Assembly (NCBI GenBank): GCA_947184155.2
Contig: CAMXCT020001824.1
Coordinates: forward strand, 355,427-419,426
Direction: 5' to 3'
DNA from: Cladocopium goreaui
Taxonomy: Eukaryota; Sar; Dinophyceae; Suessiales; Symbiodiniaceae
Length of the DNA: 64,000 bases
Shown here in pieces: positions 18,108-60,906 of the stretch. The first letter of the stretch is position 1. Every line of letters begins with the position of its first letter. The position numbers were made by a program, and so were the translations under genes. The notes beneath the pieces were generated by a model. That model was not told the origin of the DNA and ran no database searches. It saw only the letters and a list, made by a program, of their open reading frames with translations.

Positions 18108-18231
18108 TAAGGTGGCGCCTCATAGTTAGCTACGTTGATAAATAGCTCGAATACCTACGGTTTATAGTAGATATATCTATAGTTACTCTGGTTTATAAAC
18201 CAACAAACATAACGGGGGGTGCCACCTTGTA
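18108..18231. repeat. Palindromic element family C (TACAATGTGGGGCCCCC-type ends)
   Basis: Ends TAAGGTGGCGCC and GGTGCCACCTTGTA; inner arms CATAGTTAGCTA and TTATAAACCAAC are shared with the copies at 33358, 60701 and 63041. Confidence 0.65.
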
Positions 18232-27988: not shown

Positions 27989-28040
27989 CTCCTCGTAGAG
28001 ATCTTCTGCTTCCTCATGCTTTCCCCGCGTTCGCATGAGC
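27989..28040 (-). CDS. TPR protein, exon (GKHEEAEDLYEE)
   Basis: 52 bp reading (G)LMRTRGKHEEAEDLYEE, equal to LLQAQGKLEEAEPLYRR. Acceptor GCGAAG; donor GAGGAG|GCGTGT (GC). The single leading G completes a glycine codon with the upstream exon that ends NNLA(GG), giving NNLAGLMRTRGKHEEAE without a gap. Confidence 0.75.
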
Positions 28041-28613: not shown

Positions 28614-28664
28614 CCTGCAAGGTTGTTGATGGAGGTCAAGGTATCTTTGTGCATGTTCCCCAAC
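28614..28664 (-). CDS. TPR protein, exon (HKDTLTSINNLA)
   Basis: 51 bp reading LGNMHKDTLTSINNLA(G). It contains the diagnostic DTLTSxNNLA string. Acceptor TTTCCGAG; donor GCAGG|GCTTGG (GC). With this acceptor the join to the upstream exon (...NGRRL + L) preserves EALEGRRRVLG spacing; the more T-rich acceptor CTCTCCAG 9 bp upstream does not. Confidence 0.75.
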
Positions 28665-30319: not shown

Positions 30320-30600
30320 ATATATAAGTTATTATATTATATTATATTGTATTATATTATATTATATTGTATTATATTATATACTATACTATACTATATT
30401 ATATTATATTTTATTCTATTATTATTTATATATTATGTATATATATTGTATATATATATATATGTTATTTATACATACCATCTATGTGTTATATATATAT
30501 ATATATATTAATTATTTATATATTATGTATATAAACATATATATATTATATCCCACCAATATATTGTTATATAGAATGTTTTAAACATATATATATATAT
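30320..30600. repeat. AT simple-sequence block
   Basis: TATAT and ATTATATT units; the listed tyrosine/isoleucine-rich frame here is an artefact. Confidence 0.85.
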
Positions 30601-31209
30601 ATATGCAACCCCCCCAAGACCTACCTTTTGTGTAGCAGGTATGTCCTTGAATGCCTTGTCTTCCTTCTTATCTTATCACCTATTGCAGCACTGCATCAGG
30701 AAAGTATCTTGGGCGCATGCGCCTGGACACATCCTGCCCACATATGTAGCCTGCACAGCGCTGTAACATCTATATTCGACATATTTATTTCATTATATAA
30801 GTTTTATTATTATGCTTTCAGACATGTTTAATATATCAACACGAATCTTATATCTATGATCTGGTTCTTGCAAGTCTGTTTTTTCAATATTTTCTACAAC
30901 ATTTGGTATTTTTTTACGTAACCTTCAGGATTTGCATCAATATGATTTGGGGAAAAGATGGGTTGAAATTTTGTTATTTGTTTTTTACAATAGTATGGCA
31001 TACTATTCTTATTCTTTTTGATGAATACAACTTTTGTAAGGTAGTTTTTTTTAATAATGACTACTGGCGGAATTCATGTTAACTGAATGTTCTGTAGCAA
31101 TTTGAGCCCTTTTAGCTTCTACGAAAGCTGAGCTTTGTGCAAGATTAGATGATATAGTTAGTGCATCGTGAGATTTTACATTTTTATTTACGTAAGATTT
31201 TGCAGAAAA

Positions 31210-31500
31210 TCAAGGTGTAAAAAGTACAATAGATAGGTAAGACTGATCTCCAGCTATATTTCTTAGACATATTGATTTTATAATGCAATTACCTATTAAT
31301 CTTCCTACAATTTCATAACATTCCATCAAGCTGTGCATATTATTCTCATTTGGTGTTATTTGTCTTATTTGTTCTTGTGAATCTACGGTATTTCCATTAG
31401 CTTTTTCTTCAGCATCTACATTTTTTGGTGGAAGAGTTGATATTTTTTGCTGTGATAAATCATCTTTAAATCTGTATATTGCAAATGATATTGTAATTTC
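31210..31500 (-). pseudogene. Unrecognised bacterial-like reading frame in the AT-rich insert
   Basis: About 96 codons open on the minus strand without a start: EITISFAIYRFKDDLSQQ, then VDAEEKANGNTVDSQEQIRQ, MECYEIVGRLIGNCIIKSI, ending at TGA. Codon content is AT-rich but the amino-acid mix is protein-like. After the stop the same frame continues KNVKSHDALTISSNLAQSS then AFVEAKRAQIATEHSV, so it looks like one gene broken by a TGA, or TGA may have been a sense codon in the source. Family not recognised. Confidence 0.45.
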
Positions 31501-31636
31501 ATTGCCTTAAATACAATAGTGCTTGACTTAGAAATATTGTTTGTTAAACACAAACAATTTTGATGATAATAAATTGATAAGTGCAAACAAAAAATCTAGA
31601 TCAGTTTTTAATACAACTATCATATTATAAATTGTC

Positions 31637-31760
31637 TTAGTTTGTTATAATTCTTAATTTTGTGATTCTATGAGGTATTATAGAAGTTTCTAGCATTGGG
31701 TGAATATGTATTTTTACTTCGAAATATTCTATTTTTTTATTGGTTCTTTTTGCTCTATTT
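31637..31760 (-). pseudogene. rplI: bL9-like C-terminus (decayed rplI)
   Basis: Minus strand reads KKIEYFEVKIHIHPMLETS then IIPHRITK and a stop. Bacterial bL9 ends in (I)GEFEVxIxLHPEVxAxIxV, so the match covers the last 25 residues. The N-terminal part is missing or unreadable. It follows the bS18 relic in the usual bacterial gene order. Confidence 0.45.
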
Positions 31761-31789
31761 CTCTGGATCTAGTCGTTCGTTAATCAAAT

Positions 31790-32051
31790 TATGTTTTTAT
31801 CTTGCATATGTTTTTTTCAGATTGATTTGTTTGTATTTTTGAATGATAATATTCTACCATTTTGTGATGTGAACTTTGATAGCGTTTCAGGGTTTTTATA
31901 GTCTATTGCCTTTTTCTAAGCATAAATTGCAGCAATGTTTGTTTTTGAACGTTTTCTTTGCCGATCTATCTGCAACCCTTTCTAATACATTTTGTTGAGA
32001 AGTTTTTGATTGGTCTGTAGATAAAGAGGTATTGCTATCGGATGAGCTCAT
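31790..32051 (-). pseudogene. rpsR: bS18 ribosomal protein relic (rpsR), frameshifted
   Basis: From an ATG at 32051 the minus strand reads MSSSDSNTSLSTDQSKTSQ, then KKTFKNKHCCNLCLEKGNRL and a stop. One frameshift later it continues DYKNPETLSKFTSQNGRILS, then a TGA and KKHMQ. This is the bS18 pattern: C-x2-C, then (I/L)DYKxxxxLxxFxSxxGRIL, then KK(H/Y)xRQ. One frameshift and several stops show it is not functional. The AT-rich codons differ sharply from the GC-rich host exons. Best explained as DNA of bacterial origin. Confidence 0.65.
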
Positions 32052-32118
32052 GCATTTTTACTTATTATTGCTTATTTTGTTCTTCTTGTTAAACAAATAC
32101 TGTTAAGATTGCAGAAGG

Positions 32119-32220
32119 TTATATATGTTTTTCGTTATTTTTGCCAAAGGTGATTGATTTGCTTGGAAGCATAAAAAATATTTTGCTTTTAGAATTTTCT
32201 TTTACAGGATAAGCAAGTTT
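32119..32220 (-). pseudogene. rpsF: bS6-like C-terminus (decayed rpsF)
   Basis: The minus strand reads KLAYPVKENSKSKIFFML, then SKSITFGKNNEKHI and TAA, ending 68 bp before the bS18 start codon. (R)KLAYPVxKxxKGxYxxM is the central strand of bS6. The part upstream of KLAYP is not bS6-like, so the insert probably ends near 32220. On its own weak; convincing mainly through its position before bS18. Confidence 0.45.
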
Positions 32221-32310
32221 ATTTGAGGAATGTCCTTCGCAAACAGGCCAATCATTTGCAAGAAATTGCAGGAAAATGCAAGTTCTGGTGACTAATATTA
32301 TTCCAAGTAT

Positions 32311-32442
32311 AAGGATTCAAGATTCAAGATTCAAGGCTCAGAAAAAACTTCTTTAATCCAACCTCTTTGGATTCAAGGTTCAAGATTAAAGGCTGAAGGC
32401 CTTCGGATTCAAGAAGTTTTTTTTGGATCTTGAATCTTGAAT
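32311..32442. repeat. Hairpin of TTCAAGA repeats beside the bacterial-like insert
   Basis: GGATTCAAGATTCAAGATTC on one side and GGATCTTGAATCTTGAATCC on the other, with further GGATTCAAG copies inside. It lies within 100 bp of the insert's right edge. Confidence 0.65.
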
Positions 32443-32914
32443 CCGATGTACTTAGGGAAGGGTGGGATGGGAACAAACTTGCAAAAAGATACATGTTTGA
32501 TCACCAAAAGATGCCCTAAGTCTTAGAGTTCAAAATGTTAAGAAAAAACAATGTAAATTTGTAAATACCACTAAATTTGATTGAAAGGTAGGTCTTGGGG
32601 CGGTACCATATATATATATATATCCATTGTATATCCAATATTGTCGCTTATATATGTCACTATCTCCCATTGATTCCCATTAATTAATCCACTACATCTT
32701 ACTATATCCCATGACCTATCCATACCCTTCAATGCCGTAGTTGTTTGCATCCGACCCCTATGCTTGCTTTGATCTCCATTTGTCAAAATGGTCAAACCCT
32801 TTTAGTCCCTATTGTTAACTGGTGTCATAGCTATAAAGTCACTCAAAAAAACACATGATCTGATTGATTTTGTTTGATTTTGATCATCTAAAAATAGCTG
32901 ATCAAAATTGCTAT

Positions 32915-33232: not shown

Positions 33233-33357
33233 CTGGTTCAAGGTGTGCCTTGGCGTTGAGGCGCCACGCGTTGAGATGGGAGCCACGGGCCACGGGCCGC
33301 GTTGTGGATATTTTTCACTTGGGAACATCATCGATGTGGGTAAAGCAAATAAACACC

Positions 33358-33482
33358 TACAAGGTGGTGCCCCATAGTTAGCTAAGTTGGTTTATAAGTC
33401 CCATGACTATGGTTTATGGCAGATATAACTATAGTTTATGGGGTTTATAAACCCACTTATAACTGGGGGGCACCATCCTGTA
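33358..33482. repeat. Family C element
   Basis: Ends TACAAGGTGGTGCC and GGGGCACCATCCTGTA, with GGTTTATAAG / TTTATAAACCCAC inner arms. Confidence 0.75.
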
Positions 33483-34818
33483 TGATGTACCCAACTTAAA
33501 TATCAAATCCAATGAATCCAATGTGGACAAAAATGTCATTTTAGCCACCGGATTGATGGGTTATACTAAAAGAATTTATAGCAAAGTTGGAGATGGTGGA
33601 TCCCATCGCTTGACTCATAACAAAACCCTGTTTTTATGTCTTTTTTAGTCCCAAACATAGCTCAAAAAAGCCCAACTGGTTCCCAGGTTACGGGACAGAA
33701 TGTTGACTGGGAATCCTCTGCTTTGCTTGGGGCTATGGAAGATGGACGCCGTAGGCAAAAACAGGGCTCTTTCTTGTCAGGGATTCCGACCAAGTCCATG
33801 ACTTTCCGGTCAACTGATCCGATCGTCAAATGGATCGAATGCTGTCCCATTTGAGTTCATATGGCGAACATCAAAACCCTGTAGCCTTGTTGAACAACTA
33901 AATCGCTGGGATTTTTGAATGGTCATTGCCTCAACATGTCAGTGGTATTTCATAGGTAAGCTTTAAACATCCATCCCCATATTATTCAGGTCAATTTGGG
34001 ATGTCAATTCGCTTGCTGATGCAATAGGAGGATATAGGAGGATCATTCTACTAGGAGTATAGAGTTGGTTACTAACCATTGCTGAAACCCAGTTGTATGT
34101 GGGACAAGCCCACGAAATGATGACTTACGATACCAGGCTTATATTTATATAAACACTAGTTATTAAGTAATGATATGGCATGATATGGCTATATATATAT
34201 CTATATATCAGTATCTATAAATTAAATTTTCATTCTTAGGCTTTGAACATCTCTAAACCCGAAACCCTGCTATTTTTCTTGATGTGAAAGTTCAATTTTC
34301 TGTGGTCAACTAAAGTTTTGATCTCTTGTCAGCGGCTGGTGATCACACACATGTCTCTCCCCATTGTAGTGTGTGTCCATTTTGTTGGGTATGGGAATAG
34401 GTCAAAACCCTTGCACCCTGGTCACTGGTTTCCACATCCCAAACAAATGAATGGCATACGTAATCTATGGTGGTATCTTCATTAACCTCACTTTGCGAGA
34501 AAAAAAACGGGATTGACCCAACCCATATTTATCAAATGTTTGCATTTCATCTTATAGTCCGTTTTGTCAGTAAAGTTCCCTCGTTTGTGCTAGATGCATC
34601 TCCAATGGGTTCATCGTCATTCGTGGGGATTCTCAGTTGCATCATGAGGCTAGCTTAACAAGTCTCAAAGATCAACAAATTGTGAAGCGCCATAAACATC
34701 AACTATTAATACTATTAATCTCAATGGCAATATCTTCAATGGATCTCAATGGCTCCATCAAAAACATCAACAAAAACATCGACTTTTATAAAACCCTGAA
34801 ATCTCCCATGAAATCCAC

Positions 34819-34885
34819 CAAGGTACAGAAGCGAGGCCAAATTGCTGCAACTCGTCAGGGTGTCTGGGTGCATGTCCTCGGATCG
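34819..34885 (-). CDS. TPR protein, exon (MHPDTLTSCSNLASLL)
   Basis: 67 bp reading RSEDMHPDTLTSCSNLAS then LLYL. The HPDTLTSxxNLAxLL signature is unmistakable. Acceptor GTGACCAG; donor CTTG|GTGGAT. Phase 0 at the start joins AGRRN of the upstream exon with consensus spacing. The exit to the next exon is unresolved. Confidence 0.78.
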
Positions 34886-45612: not shown

Positions 45613-46383
45613 CTGGTTTAGGCCATTTTGACACGGGGTCCATCTTAGATTTGGGATATAATTTGATATAATGCAAAAACTATCCGTATGTGTCCAGGTA
45701 TATACTGTAGATCCTGCTATTTGAGAAATGCCAAAAAAAACTGTAGATCCTATTGGGAAAATGTTTCTTCGGGCTGGTCAAAGATTGATGCGTTTACACA
45801 CGACGAAAGAAGATAAATGTATATATATATATATAGTTATACATGTTAAACATTGTTAAACCCTCTTCCTTTGTCAAATCGCCGTGTGTCTTGGCAAAAT
45901 TCAGCTTGTTCCTTCGTTCCTAATCAAAACGTGAGAAAACCGTACATGCCAACAGTATTGAACCACACAACGTGGGAAACTAAAATGGTACGTGAGTCTA
46001 CGTTTGAGGTAAGTGGACCAAAGAGTGGCTGGTGATCATCAATCATCACCATCATATCCATCATTGTTAACAAAATCAACGAAACTGTGCTGTTTGGCTC
46101 AAAAAATGTTGCACCTGCGGTTGTTTGGGAAATAACATCGATGCACCTGAGCAGGGCAAAGACAGAGTCAGTCACCCGAGTCAGTCGCCCCAAACGTCCG
46201 AGTCAGGAACCCCATAGGACAAAGTCAGTCACCGGTGAGCATTAGCACAGGATGCAGGGAAACCAGGAAGAGGAGACAGAGAGTCAGCAACCGAGAGTCT
46301 GTCACCCCTCGGAAGCCGGCAAGAGATCAAGGAACCAGGAGGAAAACATAAAATCAACAACAAAGAGTCGGTCAGCCCTGAAA

Positions 46384-46475
46384 GCTATCTATCGATCTAT
46401 CTATCTATTTATCTATCTATCGATCTATCTACCTATCTATCCATCTATCTATCGATCTATCTATCTGATTATCTA
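46384..46475. repeat. ATCT microsatellite
   Basis: CTATCTATCGATCTAT units inside the 2 kb inverted-arm unit. Confidence 0.85.
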
Positions 46476-46534
46476 GGAACCCATGGGAACATGGAAAAAC
46501 GGAACGTCAAAAACCAAGAGTCCCCCAAGAAACC

Positions 46535-47505
46535 TTAACGCAACCCCAAAACAAACCCTGACGAAACAATAATTCAACCCTAAACCAAACCAAAAGAAAG
46601 CCTGAACCAATCATCCATAAACCCCACACCAAGACTACACAAACCCTAAAAGCATACACGTTCAGATTCCTAGACACAAACAAACAAACATAATCATAAA
46701 AACTGTTGGCCAACCCTAAAACAAACCCTACAGAAGCCTACAGAAACCCTAAACCAACCCTCAAGCAAAACCCTGACAAAACCCAAATGTCACCTTAAAC
46801 TAAGCCGGAATAAACCCTAAACCAAGCCAAAAAACCCAAAACCAACACTAAGTAAACCCTAAAGAGACCCTAAAACAAACCTTGACGAAACCCTGCATTA
46901 ACCATTAATCCGAAACTAACCTCAAATAAAACCTAAACCAAGCCTAACTATATGTACCCTAAACCAAGCTGAAATAAACCTAATCCAACCCTCGCACAAA
47001 CCATGATGAAACCCTAACTTAACTTTAAACCAACGCTTAAAAATAACCCTAAACCAGGCCTATATAAACCCCAAACCAACGCTAAGTAAACCCTAAATAG
47101 ACCCTAAACCAAACCTCGACGACCCCCTACATTAGCCCTAAACCAACCCTAAATAGAACCTAAACCAAGCCTGGATATACCCTAAACCAAGCCTAAATAA
47201 ACCCTAATTTATATAAGCCCAAACCAACCCTAAATAGACCCTAAACCAACCTTAAACAAATCCTGACGAAACCCATCATTACCCTAAACCAACCCTTAAA
47301 AAACCCTAATCCAAGCCTAAATAAACCCCAAACCAACACTAAGTCAACCCCAAACCAACACTAAGTCAACCCTAAATAGACCCTAAAACGAACCATGAGG
47401 AAACCTGGAGAAACCTTGAACCAACCCTAAAACCAACCCTAAATAGACCTGAAACAAACCTGAATACACCTTGAAACAAACCTGAACCAACCTTAAAGAA
47501 ACCAT
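46535..47505. repeat. Degenerate telomere-like array, CCCTAAAC(C)AA
   Basis: For nearly 1 kb the plus strand is built of AACCCTAAACCAA-type units, many with an exact CCCTAAA (C-strand of TTTAGGG). Units vary between 10 and 16 bp and are interspersed with CCTGACGAAACC. Confidence 0.75.
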
Positions 47506-47509
47506 GTCA

Positions 47510-47575
47510 CTTTGATGGCCCACAAGGCACGCCGCAGGGCCACCGCTTGCCCCACAATGGGGCTGTGGAGGGCGA
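47510..47575 (-). CDS. Candidate exon, unrecognised helical segment
   Basis: After CCCTCCACAG the minus strand reads PIVGQAVALRRALWAIK, helical and loosely TPR-like (AEPLYRRAL minus one residue). It sits between the telomere-like array and the 36-bp tandem repeat, inside the 2 kb inverted-repeat unit, so it may not belong to the TPR gene. Confidence 0.2.
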
Positions 47576-47619
47576 CTGACTCCAACATGGGGGTGACCGA
47601 TTCTGTCTCCACCTGGGGA

Positions 47620-47870
47620 TGTTTGGGAAATAACATCGATGCACCTGACGCTGTTTACAAAATCGATGCAACATACGAGGGAAGCTGCATTGATTTTTGA
47701 TCTCGGCATCGTCTCCGGTTTCCCAAACACCCCTGGTGCATCGATTTTGTTTCCCAAACATCCCCAGGTGCATCGATTTCTTTCTCAAAAATCGTCAGGT
47801 GCATCGATTTTGTTTCCCAAACATCCTCAGGTGCATCGATGTTATTTCCCAAACAACCGCAGGTGCAACA
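47620..47870. repeat. About 36-bp tandem repeat, five or six copies
   Basis: Units of the form CAGGTGCATCGATTTTG then TTTCCCAAACATCC. The outermost copies form part of the right arm of the 2 kb unit. Confidence 0.7.
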
Positions 47871-48491
47871 TTTTTTTGAACCAACCAGCACAGTTTCGTT
47901 GATTTTGTTGACAATGATGGTGATGATTGATGATCATACCAGCCACTCTTGGGTCCACTTACCTCAAACATAGACTCACTTGCCTCGAATGTAACATAAA
48001 ACAACATAAAACTAAGACAACGTTCTTTTCTAGGAAGCGAAGCCCATTCCCAAATTTCCCATACCACGTGCCAGGTGCCATGAAATTGGTGACATGCCCA
48101 TTTCTCTTGGCAAATGTTACCCTGAATCCCGAAAGCCCGTTCTCTTCCTTGTACGATCGGTGATTTGAAAGGGGCATGAACAATATAAACATAGTCGTTC
48201 AAGGCATCTACAGTGTTGATACAAGCTACAACTGCCAGGATTGTAAGGAAAAATAAGCCCCACACATCAACTTCGGCCAGTGAGGTTATTTGATGTCCAA
48301 GGTTGGGGTACCAACAAATGTGGTCTCCAAGGGTGGGTCCGGCTGTAATCAAACATGGCTGAGAAATCCCCGAACTAAATGGAGCTTGAGTTCGCTGGGA
48401 ACATGCACCATTTCTAAAATAGTTGATTTTCCGGCCGCGGGAAAGATGACAGGTGTCATTTTTGAGCTATTTGATGGCAACATCCGTGAAC

Positions 48492-50854: not shown

Positions 50855-51836
50855 CATTAAATCACCCTTAAATCCCATTAACACACATTAAATCACAATT
50901 AAATCCCATTAAATCACATTAAAACCCATTAAATCACCATTAGGTCCCATTAAATCACCATTAAATCCCATTAAATCCCATTAAATCACCATTAAATCAC
51001 CATTAAATTACCATTAAATACCATTAAATCACCATTAAATCACCATTAAATTACCATTAAATCCCATTAAATCACCATTAAATCACCATTAAATTACAAT
51101 TAAATCCCATTAAATCACAATTAAATCCCATTAAATCACCATTAAATCACCATTAAATCACCATTAAATCACCATTAAATCACCATTAAAACCCATTAAA
51201 TCACCATTAGATCCCATTAAATCACAATTAAATCACCATTAGATCCCATTAAATCACAATTAAATCCCATTAAATCCCATTAAATCACAATTAAAACCCA
51301 TTAAATCACCATTAGATCCCATTAAATCACCATTAAATCCCTTTAAAACCCATTAAATCACCATTAGATCCCATTAAATCACAATTAAATCACAATTAAA
51401 ACCCATTAACTCACCATTAAATTACCATTAAATTACCATTAAATCCCATTAAATCACAATTAAATCCAATCCCATCACCATTAAATCACCATTAAATCAC
51501 CATTAAACCACCATTAAATCATCATTAAATCACCATTAAATCACCATTAAATCACCATTAAATCATCATTAAATCACAATTAAATCACCATTAAATCACC
51601 ATTAAATCACCATTAAATCATCATTAAATCACCATTAAATCACCATTAAATCACCATTAAAACCCATTAAATCACCATTAGATCCCATTAAATCACAATT
51701 AAATCCCATTAAATCACAATTAAATCACAATTAAAACCCATTAACTCACCATTAAATCACATTAAATCCCATTAAATCACAATTAAAACCCATTAACTCA
51801 CCATTAAATCCCATTAAATCACCATTAAATCACCAT
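50855..51836. repeat. Large ATTAAATCACC / ATTAAATCCC array
   Basis: Almost 1 kb of 10-11 bp units, fills most of the intron after the exon at 51852. Same motif, inverted, at 9656-9755 and in short form near 62695-62745. Confidence 0.9.
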
Positions 51837-51851
51837 GGGGGAAATCGGCAC

Positions 51852-51893
51852 CTCTCTGTCCAAAGCTTCAGCTTCGTCCAGGAGGCCACGGGC
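51852..51893 (-). CDS. TPR protein, exon (ARGLLDEAEALDRE)
   Basis: Fourteen codons, ARGLLDEAEALDRE, equal to AQGKLEEAEPLYRR. Acceptor AAGCACCAG; donor AGAGAG|GTGCCG, phase 0 at both ends. It directly abuts the ATTAAATCACC array that fills the following intron. Confidence 0.78.
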
Positions 51894-52138
51894 CTGGTGC
51901 TTTGGATCGAGAACTGCAGCACTTCGCCCAGTTGGAATATCACCACATGGGATGAAATATATGGATATTATATGGATGAAAATCATATATCAACCATATA
52001 TCCATAAAATATGGACTATATCTGGATATTATATGGACTATATTAATGGATATTATATGGACTATATCTGGATATTATATGGATTTAATATATGGATGAA
52101 CAACATATTAATCAACCATGTCGCCCGTGTTTCGTCGC

Positions 52139-60485: not shown

Positions 60486-60700
60486 TTTACAGACCCCCAC
60501 TATTGGAAGAACCCTGCGCTCAGACGCTCTCGGGAAAAACAGCTATAGCTGGCTCATTTGGTTGGCAATTTCAGCTGCAATCCTCCCCTACTCACCACAT
60601 GATCGTTCTGGATTGGATTCGACGCCGGAAAATCTCGCCCAAAGTAAACCGATCCCAAAATCCCAAAATCGGAGTTCTATTTTCTAAAATAATTACATCT

Positions 60701-60825
60701 TACAATGTGGGCCCCCCCAGTTATAAGTTGGTTTATAAACCCCATTAACTATTGTTATAAGTACAATAAAACATAGTTATTGGAGTTATAAACCAACTTA
60801 GCTATCTAGGGGGCCCCACATTGTA
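60701..60825. repeat. Family C element
   Basis: Best copy: TACAATGTGGGCCCCCCC at one end and GGGGGCCCCACATTGTA at the other, enclosing AGTTATAAGTTGGTTTATAA and its complement. Confidence 0.85.
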
Positions 60826-60906
60826 GATATCAAAATATCTATCAAGATCTATCTCTCTCTCTCTCTCTATTCACACCACTTCAGTGGATTCCCACCCGGC
60901 CCTCAC

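Follow-up and report, generated by a model that had tools for sequence, protein, structure and literature searches.

How the decayed remains of a bacterial ribosomal gene cluster came to lie in the DNA of a dinoflagellate is the question raised by this locus of Cladocopium goreaui. The window that we analysed, a stretch of 64,000 nucleotides on contig C1824, belongs to an assembly of 1.166 Gb in 6,202 contigs, which served as the host search space. An earlier reading of the letters alone (hereafter the sequence-only reading) implied a lone insertion of one bacterial segment. This did not hold: the decayed rpsF-rpsR-rplI sequence, at about 30,790-32,222 on the minus strand, lies as cargo within a 2-kb repeat, a dispersed element whose cargo was shown at 49 of the 61 host loci that we defined. 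Beyond what had been noticed before are the terminal inverted repeats (TIRs), the repetition of the unit and a flgB-flgC part of the cargo at about 30790-31623. We think it very probable that a Pack-TIR-like non-autonomous TIR transposon captured bacterial DNA and spread in the dinoflagellate nucleus. The parts of the element, and the host motifs around it, are located in the window as follows.

30589..32623, minus strand: whole element including the outermost TA-rich bases, delimited by inverted repeats and by ends that recur in other copies.
30616-32596, minus strand: core of the element between the AAGACCTACCTTT ends.
32584..32623, minus strand: 5' terminal inverted repeat (5' by the reading direction of the cargo), about 24 nt besides the TA run.
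32313..32444, minus strand: palindromic minisatellite of the 5' arm, units of about 55 bp with internal inverted repeats, copy number differing among elements.
32103..32222, minus strand: rpsF', the C-terminal half of bS6, broken (consensus PF01250, E 4.5e-11, profile 44-90 of 90; TIGR00166, 1.4e-10).
31846..32051, minus strand: rpsR' (bS18), N-terminal and central part, frameshifted, last third missing (PF01084, 6.8e-8 in the window and 1.4e-7 in the consensus).
31680..31830, minus strand: 'rplI, the C-terminal part of bL9, limits approximate, found by tblastn and fused to rpsR' by a deletion common to the copies.
31290..31623, minus strand: flgB, flagellar rod protein, in two frames (consensus N part PF00460, 1.0e-3; TIGR01396, 2.0e-3).
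30787..31270, minus strand: flgC, flagellar rod protein, in two or more frames (consensus C part TIGR01395, 3.1e-12).
30629..30770, minus strand: 3' arm, the best conserved part of the element (consensus G+C 0.44).
30589..30628, plus strand: 3' terminal inverted repeat, from the inverted-repeat search and other copies.
28004-28024 and 28616-28645, minus strand: a pair of TPR-like host motifs to one side of the element, by motif pattern.
34835-34864, minus strand: host TPR-like motif on the other side, by motif pattern.

The inverted repeats at 30589-30628 and 32584-32623 are 40 nt long, including a 16-nt TA run, and are 93% complementary; across copies the usual form of the ends is (TA)n-ATG-[GC][TA]-A-C(n)-AAGACCTAC[AC]TTT. 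The 3' arm has 0.959 identity to the consensus, against 0.89-0.93 for the cargo, and elsewhere in the assembly it is matched seven times in tandem at a spacing of about 220 bp (G000:C2591:158601-160044). The palindromic minisatellite is strongly expanded, to many units, in loci L043, L059 and L066. Scans of the window for Rfam families and tRNAs found none. Other repeats lie in the window as well: a palindromic, MITE-like repeat of about 133 bp at 33347-33489 has partial copies at 18109, 60694-60826, 63046 and other positions, and the stretches 46001-48000 and 51001-52000 show a strong strand asymmetry (AT skew 0.39; GC skew -0.70) and are probably simple repeats.

All cargo genes run in one direction, in the order rpsF'-rpsR'-'rplI-flgB-flgC, and they were scored with HMM profiles as open pieces of the majority consensus of 20 copies. 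When ten pieces of the window were scanned, only the bS18 piece (31817-31915, minus strand) passed a cut-off, with PF01084 at E 6.8e-8 and 32.9 bits versus the Pfam cut-off of 21; the piece at 30894-31073 (minus strand) gave a weak FlgC match (E 0.015), and the remaining eight gave nothing convincing in the profile scan. The bS18 gene named in the sequence-only reading is thus borne out in the window itself, and the bS6 tail that it described is clear in the 20-copy consensus. Its bL9 tail was recovered by tblastn against alphaproteobacterial rplI (E-values of 1.2e-5 and 3.1e-5 at best, with a query joined across the frame break and a database limited to 17 loci), but it gave no HMM match in either the window pieces or the consensus pieces. 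The C part of FlgC reaches 46.9 bits with TIGR01395 over positions 76-137 of 137, that is, up to the last position of the profile, and the N part reaches E 0.04. The N part of FlgB scored 19.4 bits with PF00460, slightly below the cut-off of 20.7; its C part had no relevant HMM match in the consensus scan and was assigned by position and by eye. The profile matches to bS6, bS18 and FlgC support the bacterial source that had been proposed, and the frameshifts, the stops and the AT-rich DNA (cargo G+C 0.23-0.30) were all seen. The left bacterial edge is the start of the bS6 match (NKLAYP), and the right one lies a few codons past flgC, where possible first codons of fliE were noticed by eye and G+C climbs to 0.44 in the 3' arm.

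The spread of the element was followed by searching the host assembly with its parts. Matching stretches numbered at least 71 for the insert DNA (best 40 of 114 candidates), at least 121 for the 5' end (best 40 of 147) and at least 46 for the 3' end (best 40 of 111), and the bS18 family profile gave 12 matches, one of them on a bacterial contig. With places within 10 kb merged, at least 61 host loci on 58 contigs hold an element end or cargo, a lower bound given that each DNA search scored 40 of 111-147 candidates. The cargo is present at 45 of these loci by a cargo or bS18 search match and at four more by reading (L041, L048, L058 and L063); it is missing within the fetched 1.5 kb at four (L050, L054, L065 and L067), and eight are undecided. 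Among the 30 loci found by the 5' arm, four have neither cargo within 1.5 kb nor a 3' end there. In L054 and L065 (C2335:1327550 and C271:118092) the 5' arms end at an identical base just before the cargo and are followed by different DNA.

Under a fixed end rule, both ends were found in 20 of 30 fetched loci (L009-L038). These two-ended copies measure 1.9-2.6 kb and have a mean pairwise identity of 85.8% (range 74-91%). Their flanks, compared from 20 nt outside the element ends, are essentially unrelated, with one match of at least 60 bp at E 1e-8 among the 40. Within the 40 nt outside, 34 of the 40 ends have TA/AT runs of 8 nt or longer, compared with 8.7% of 1000 background windows taken at these loci; among the 40 ends, the 5' end of L028 is probably misplaced. 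Such (TA)n flanks mask any short target-site duplication. Shared end repeats and copies at unrelated sites are what a TIR transposon would leave, and cargo of identifiable origin between TIRs (bS6, bS18 and FlgC, FlgB more weakly) is what defines a Pack-TIR. An assembly chimera at the window site was ruled out, as the element recurs on dozens of contigs and 20 copies have independent flanks. Short two-ended members of about 1.5 kb were also seen at G000:C439:100393-101846 and C3799:2229-3761; they are possibly mutual duplicates and are absent among the scored cargo matches.

The end pattern CCCCAAGACCTACMTTT, allowing at most one mismatch, occurs 262 times in the assembly versus 22 times for the reversed pattern. 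Of 100 exact places listed, 48 fall no more than 3 kb from one of the 61 loci and include 15 pairs by hand count, and 52 lie more than 3 kb from all of them, none with a listed partner within 3 kb (for example G000:C58:262993, C254:254146 and C736:67942/78005/86755). These 52 may be one-ended relatives, unscored copies with an altered mate, or another repeat. An estimate of about 120 elements from the 262 end sites, which supposed nearly all of them to belong to one family, was dropped because of these 52 places. They also made us slightly less confident of the transposon reading and slightly readier to consider a larger carrier element.

The state of the cargo speaks to the order of events. 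The rpsR-rplI joint occurs in 18 of the 20 copies (L019 retains part only and L034 is without the stretch), and an in-frame TAA stands ahead of the bS6 tail in 13 of the 16 copies that retain the tail (hand count). Since both lesions are shared, the genes were broken before amplification or early in it. Substitutions relative to the consensus are distributed over the codon positions as 369:396:361, with 238 synonymous changes (expected 278), 851 non-synonymous (841) and 37 stops (53); inherited changes are counted here once per copy, and copies with more than 30% gaps in a block are excluded from that block. As substitutions are even over the codon positions, we take the cargo to have drifted as non-coding passenger DNA, with no sign of coding constraint in the sequences compared. 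That the cargo makes a useful protein or RNA and is kept for it seems to us very unlikely. Stop changes are indeed fewer than expected, as raw counts to which no significance is attached, and the N-terminal and central pieces of bS18 are open in 11 and 13 of the 20 copies, respectively. However, the three codon positions vary alike and there is no surplus of synonymous changes; moreover, one open frame matches both halves of a gene in four of the 20 copies, FlgB in three and FlgC in one, the latter frame being 91 amino acids long.

Other accounts of how the copies arose have to be set against transposition. If one bacterial segment had entered the nucleus and been multiplied by segmental duplication, with the inverted ends as part of the unit, pairs of contigs should look duplicated, and some do: C2617 and C781 share 99.6% identity across 4.5 kb that takes in their flanks, and the pairs C59/C5522 and C856/C5987 are also close. 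Yet the 20 two-ended copies stop at common TIRs and their flanks are unrelated save for that single match, so that segmental duplication as the general explanation is extremely improbable. Also quite unlikely, if less so, is descent from a virus-like or otherwise larger mobile element that had the bacterial genes on board and later lost those of its own. In a dinoflagellate, polinton-like viruses bearing terminal inverted repeats are known to have integrated (PMC12721341), and with 52 end-pattern places unpaired, further elements that end in this way are conceivable. In the pieces that were scanned, however, no viral family reached its cut-off, two viral names appearing at E 0.06 and 0.2.

Somewhat less improbable, though still unlikely, is a capture of the cargo as two pieces, one ribosomal and one flagellar, perhaps from different bacteria. 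A tblastn search for ribosomal genes found no rplI beside flgB among the 80 FlgC loci listed, and in three alphaproteobacterial loci inspected by eye rplI is followed by a dnaB-like frame; in the genome G138, flgC lies about 830 kb from rpsR. Against two captures, both parts run in the same direction, are separated by a short spacer and have a similarly low G+C.

Who the donor was can be narrowed to some extent. Both FlgC and the tail of bS6 point to an alphaproteobacterium, with modest support from the sequence comparisons. In the FlgC relative search, whose patterns came from the query aligned with two solved FlgC chains, the best 26 of the 80 relatives listed are all Alphaproteobacteria by title and genus; a search with the FlgC piece by itself retrieved no relative from the genome collection. 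FlgC is matched by 199 of 385 alphaproteobacterial genomes, the best at 45% identity (G329), and Pseudovibrio FlgC is about as good (43-44%). The bS6-bS18 query is matched by 302 of the 385, best by G138 (5.6e-16), the sole representative of its order in the collection. In an FlgC tree of 78 rows and 63 columns the element joins two alphaproteobacterial genomes (SH-aLRT 87), and the enclosing part (83) holds 31 named alphaproteobacterial rows, 11 rows without class, the element included, and two Bdellovibrionia; the element's end branch measures 2.39 and no starred set contains it. The consensus bS6 tail, IEKEPSAIL, resembles the E-x-PS-type tails that 16 of 20 alphaproteobacterial loci have, QKPS in one of the 16, in a comparison made within Alphaproteobacteria only and on loci chosen with a query that contained the tail. 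The best PDB match for both bS6 and bS18 is entry 9i5v, whose letters we take to be Bacteroidota-like, and this counts against a purely alphaproteobacterial reading of these two pieces.

Several other donors were considered. Rickettsiales or Holosporales, proposed in the sequence-only reading, may include the donor; a mollicute, which it had also offered, is unlikely and was ruled out by flgB/flgC, flagellar genes that speak against such a donor, and by the bS6 tail. A plastid or mitochondrial origin had already been thought improbable and we agree: it was ruled out since flgB and flgC are bacterial genes. The assembly also contains a 7.38-Mb contig, C1, which reads as a bacterial chromosome co-assembled with the dinoflagellate, planctomycete-like by eye, and whose own rpsR is near-complete or intact (locus L001, G000:C1:3754098-3757241). 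It was ruled out as the donor, its rpsR being intact and L001 being without a blastn match to the window region. Beyond C1, the assembly yielded no contig with an intact rpsR that could be the donor, and 11 of the 12 rpsR matches end by position 35 of the 52 in the profile.

Transposition after capture would thus run as follows. A non-autonomous TIR transposon in the dinoflagellate nucleus would have acquired about 1.5 kb from the chromosome of a bacterium, probably an alphaproteobacterium, comprising the 3' half of rpsF, rpsR, rplI, flgB and flgC, perhaps as filler DNA in repair or by template switching as proposed for Pack-TIRs (PMC8277862). The cargo would have been broken already at capture, or in the founder, by the rpsR-rplI deletion and the rpsF stop. 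The TIRs would be recognised by a transposase of outside origin, and copies would thereby reach TA-rich sites, with the cargo drifting thereafter as non-coding passenger DNA. We infer the cut-and-paste movement, the supply of transposase in trans, the single capture and the capture route. No transposase or autonomous partner was noticed in the analysed copies.

The host was taken to be a dinoflagellate because of 34 matches to the dinoflagellate-specific DVNP family, which bear out the earlier assignment; none was found in 14 control genomes, among which there are no close eukaryotes. Some of these matches form an array with a spacing of about 1 kb (G000:C1225:598030-617938). The TPR exons said to flank the bacterial segment on both sides are matched by three minus-strand motifs, versus a mean of 0.05 (largest 1) in shuffled sequence, with a pattern devised after such motifs had been seen in the frames; Pfam TPR around the element, however, gave nothing at its cut-off (best E 0.032). 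From this arrangement of motifs, it is plausible that the element lies inside an intron. The possibility that the bacterial DNA is an assembly chimera, which the sequence-only reading had held open, is excluded by the repetition of the element at dozens of sites.

Dinoflagellates are thought to have acquired many bacterial genes, but the entry and spread of foreign DNA can seldom be observed. In this case the element's ends, its bacterial cargo and its dispersal are all readable from the sequence, and shared lesions order decay relative to spread. The case also carries a warning, as bacterial matches in such genomes may be repeats, which may fall to contamination filters or be counted as many transfers. 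One could go further and propose that bacterial DNA regularly enters dinoflagellate nuclei, and spreads there, by way of TIR transposons, with breakage repair taking symbiont DNA as filler and transposition multiplying it. We regard this as speculative and doubtful; if true, other TIR families in these genomes would carry other bacterial gene clusters. In open-licence PubMed Central, a collection that leaves subscription journals and preprints mostly outside, we found no eukaryote described as having a family of inverted-repeat transposons with a cluster of bacterial genes as cargo.

Among known systems, nuclear inserts of endosymbiont DNA are alike in being decayed bacterial DNA in a host nucleus. 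Such inserts are known as single or locally duplicated tracts, whereas the bacterial DNA described here sits inside an element that has defined ends and is dispersed. The rice element Micron, a short non-autonomous element in (TA)n microsatellites that is flanked by TA repeats, can be likened to the present one by description only; it is much shorter and is not known to carry bacterial cargo. Dinoflagellate introners, in the parts of PMC7789003 and PMC11453091 that describe them, are likewise dispersed repeat-bearing elements without transposase genes. However, as these same parts relate, those of Amoebophrya are themselves introns, with inverted repeats of 8-20 nt, while our element measures 1.9-2.6 kb, sits beside (TA)n and may lie within an intron. 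The closest parallel to our reading is offered by Pack-TIRs and Pack-MULEs, in which, in the extracts of PMC8277862 that deal with them, gene-fragment cargo lies between transposon TIRs and multicopy families are ascribed to transposition after template switching. Both systems have sequence of non-transposon origin between TIRs, with gene fragments as the cargo. In those extracts the cargo comes from the host genome and multicopy cases are few, whereas here it is a bacterial gene cluster found at dozens of loci.
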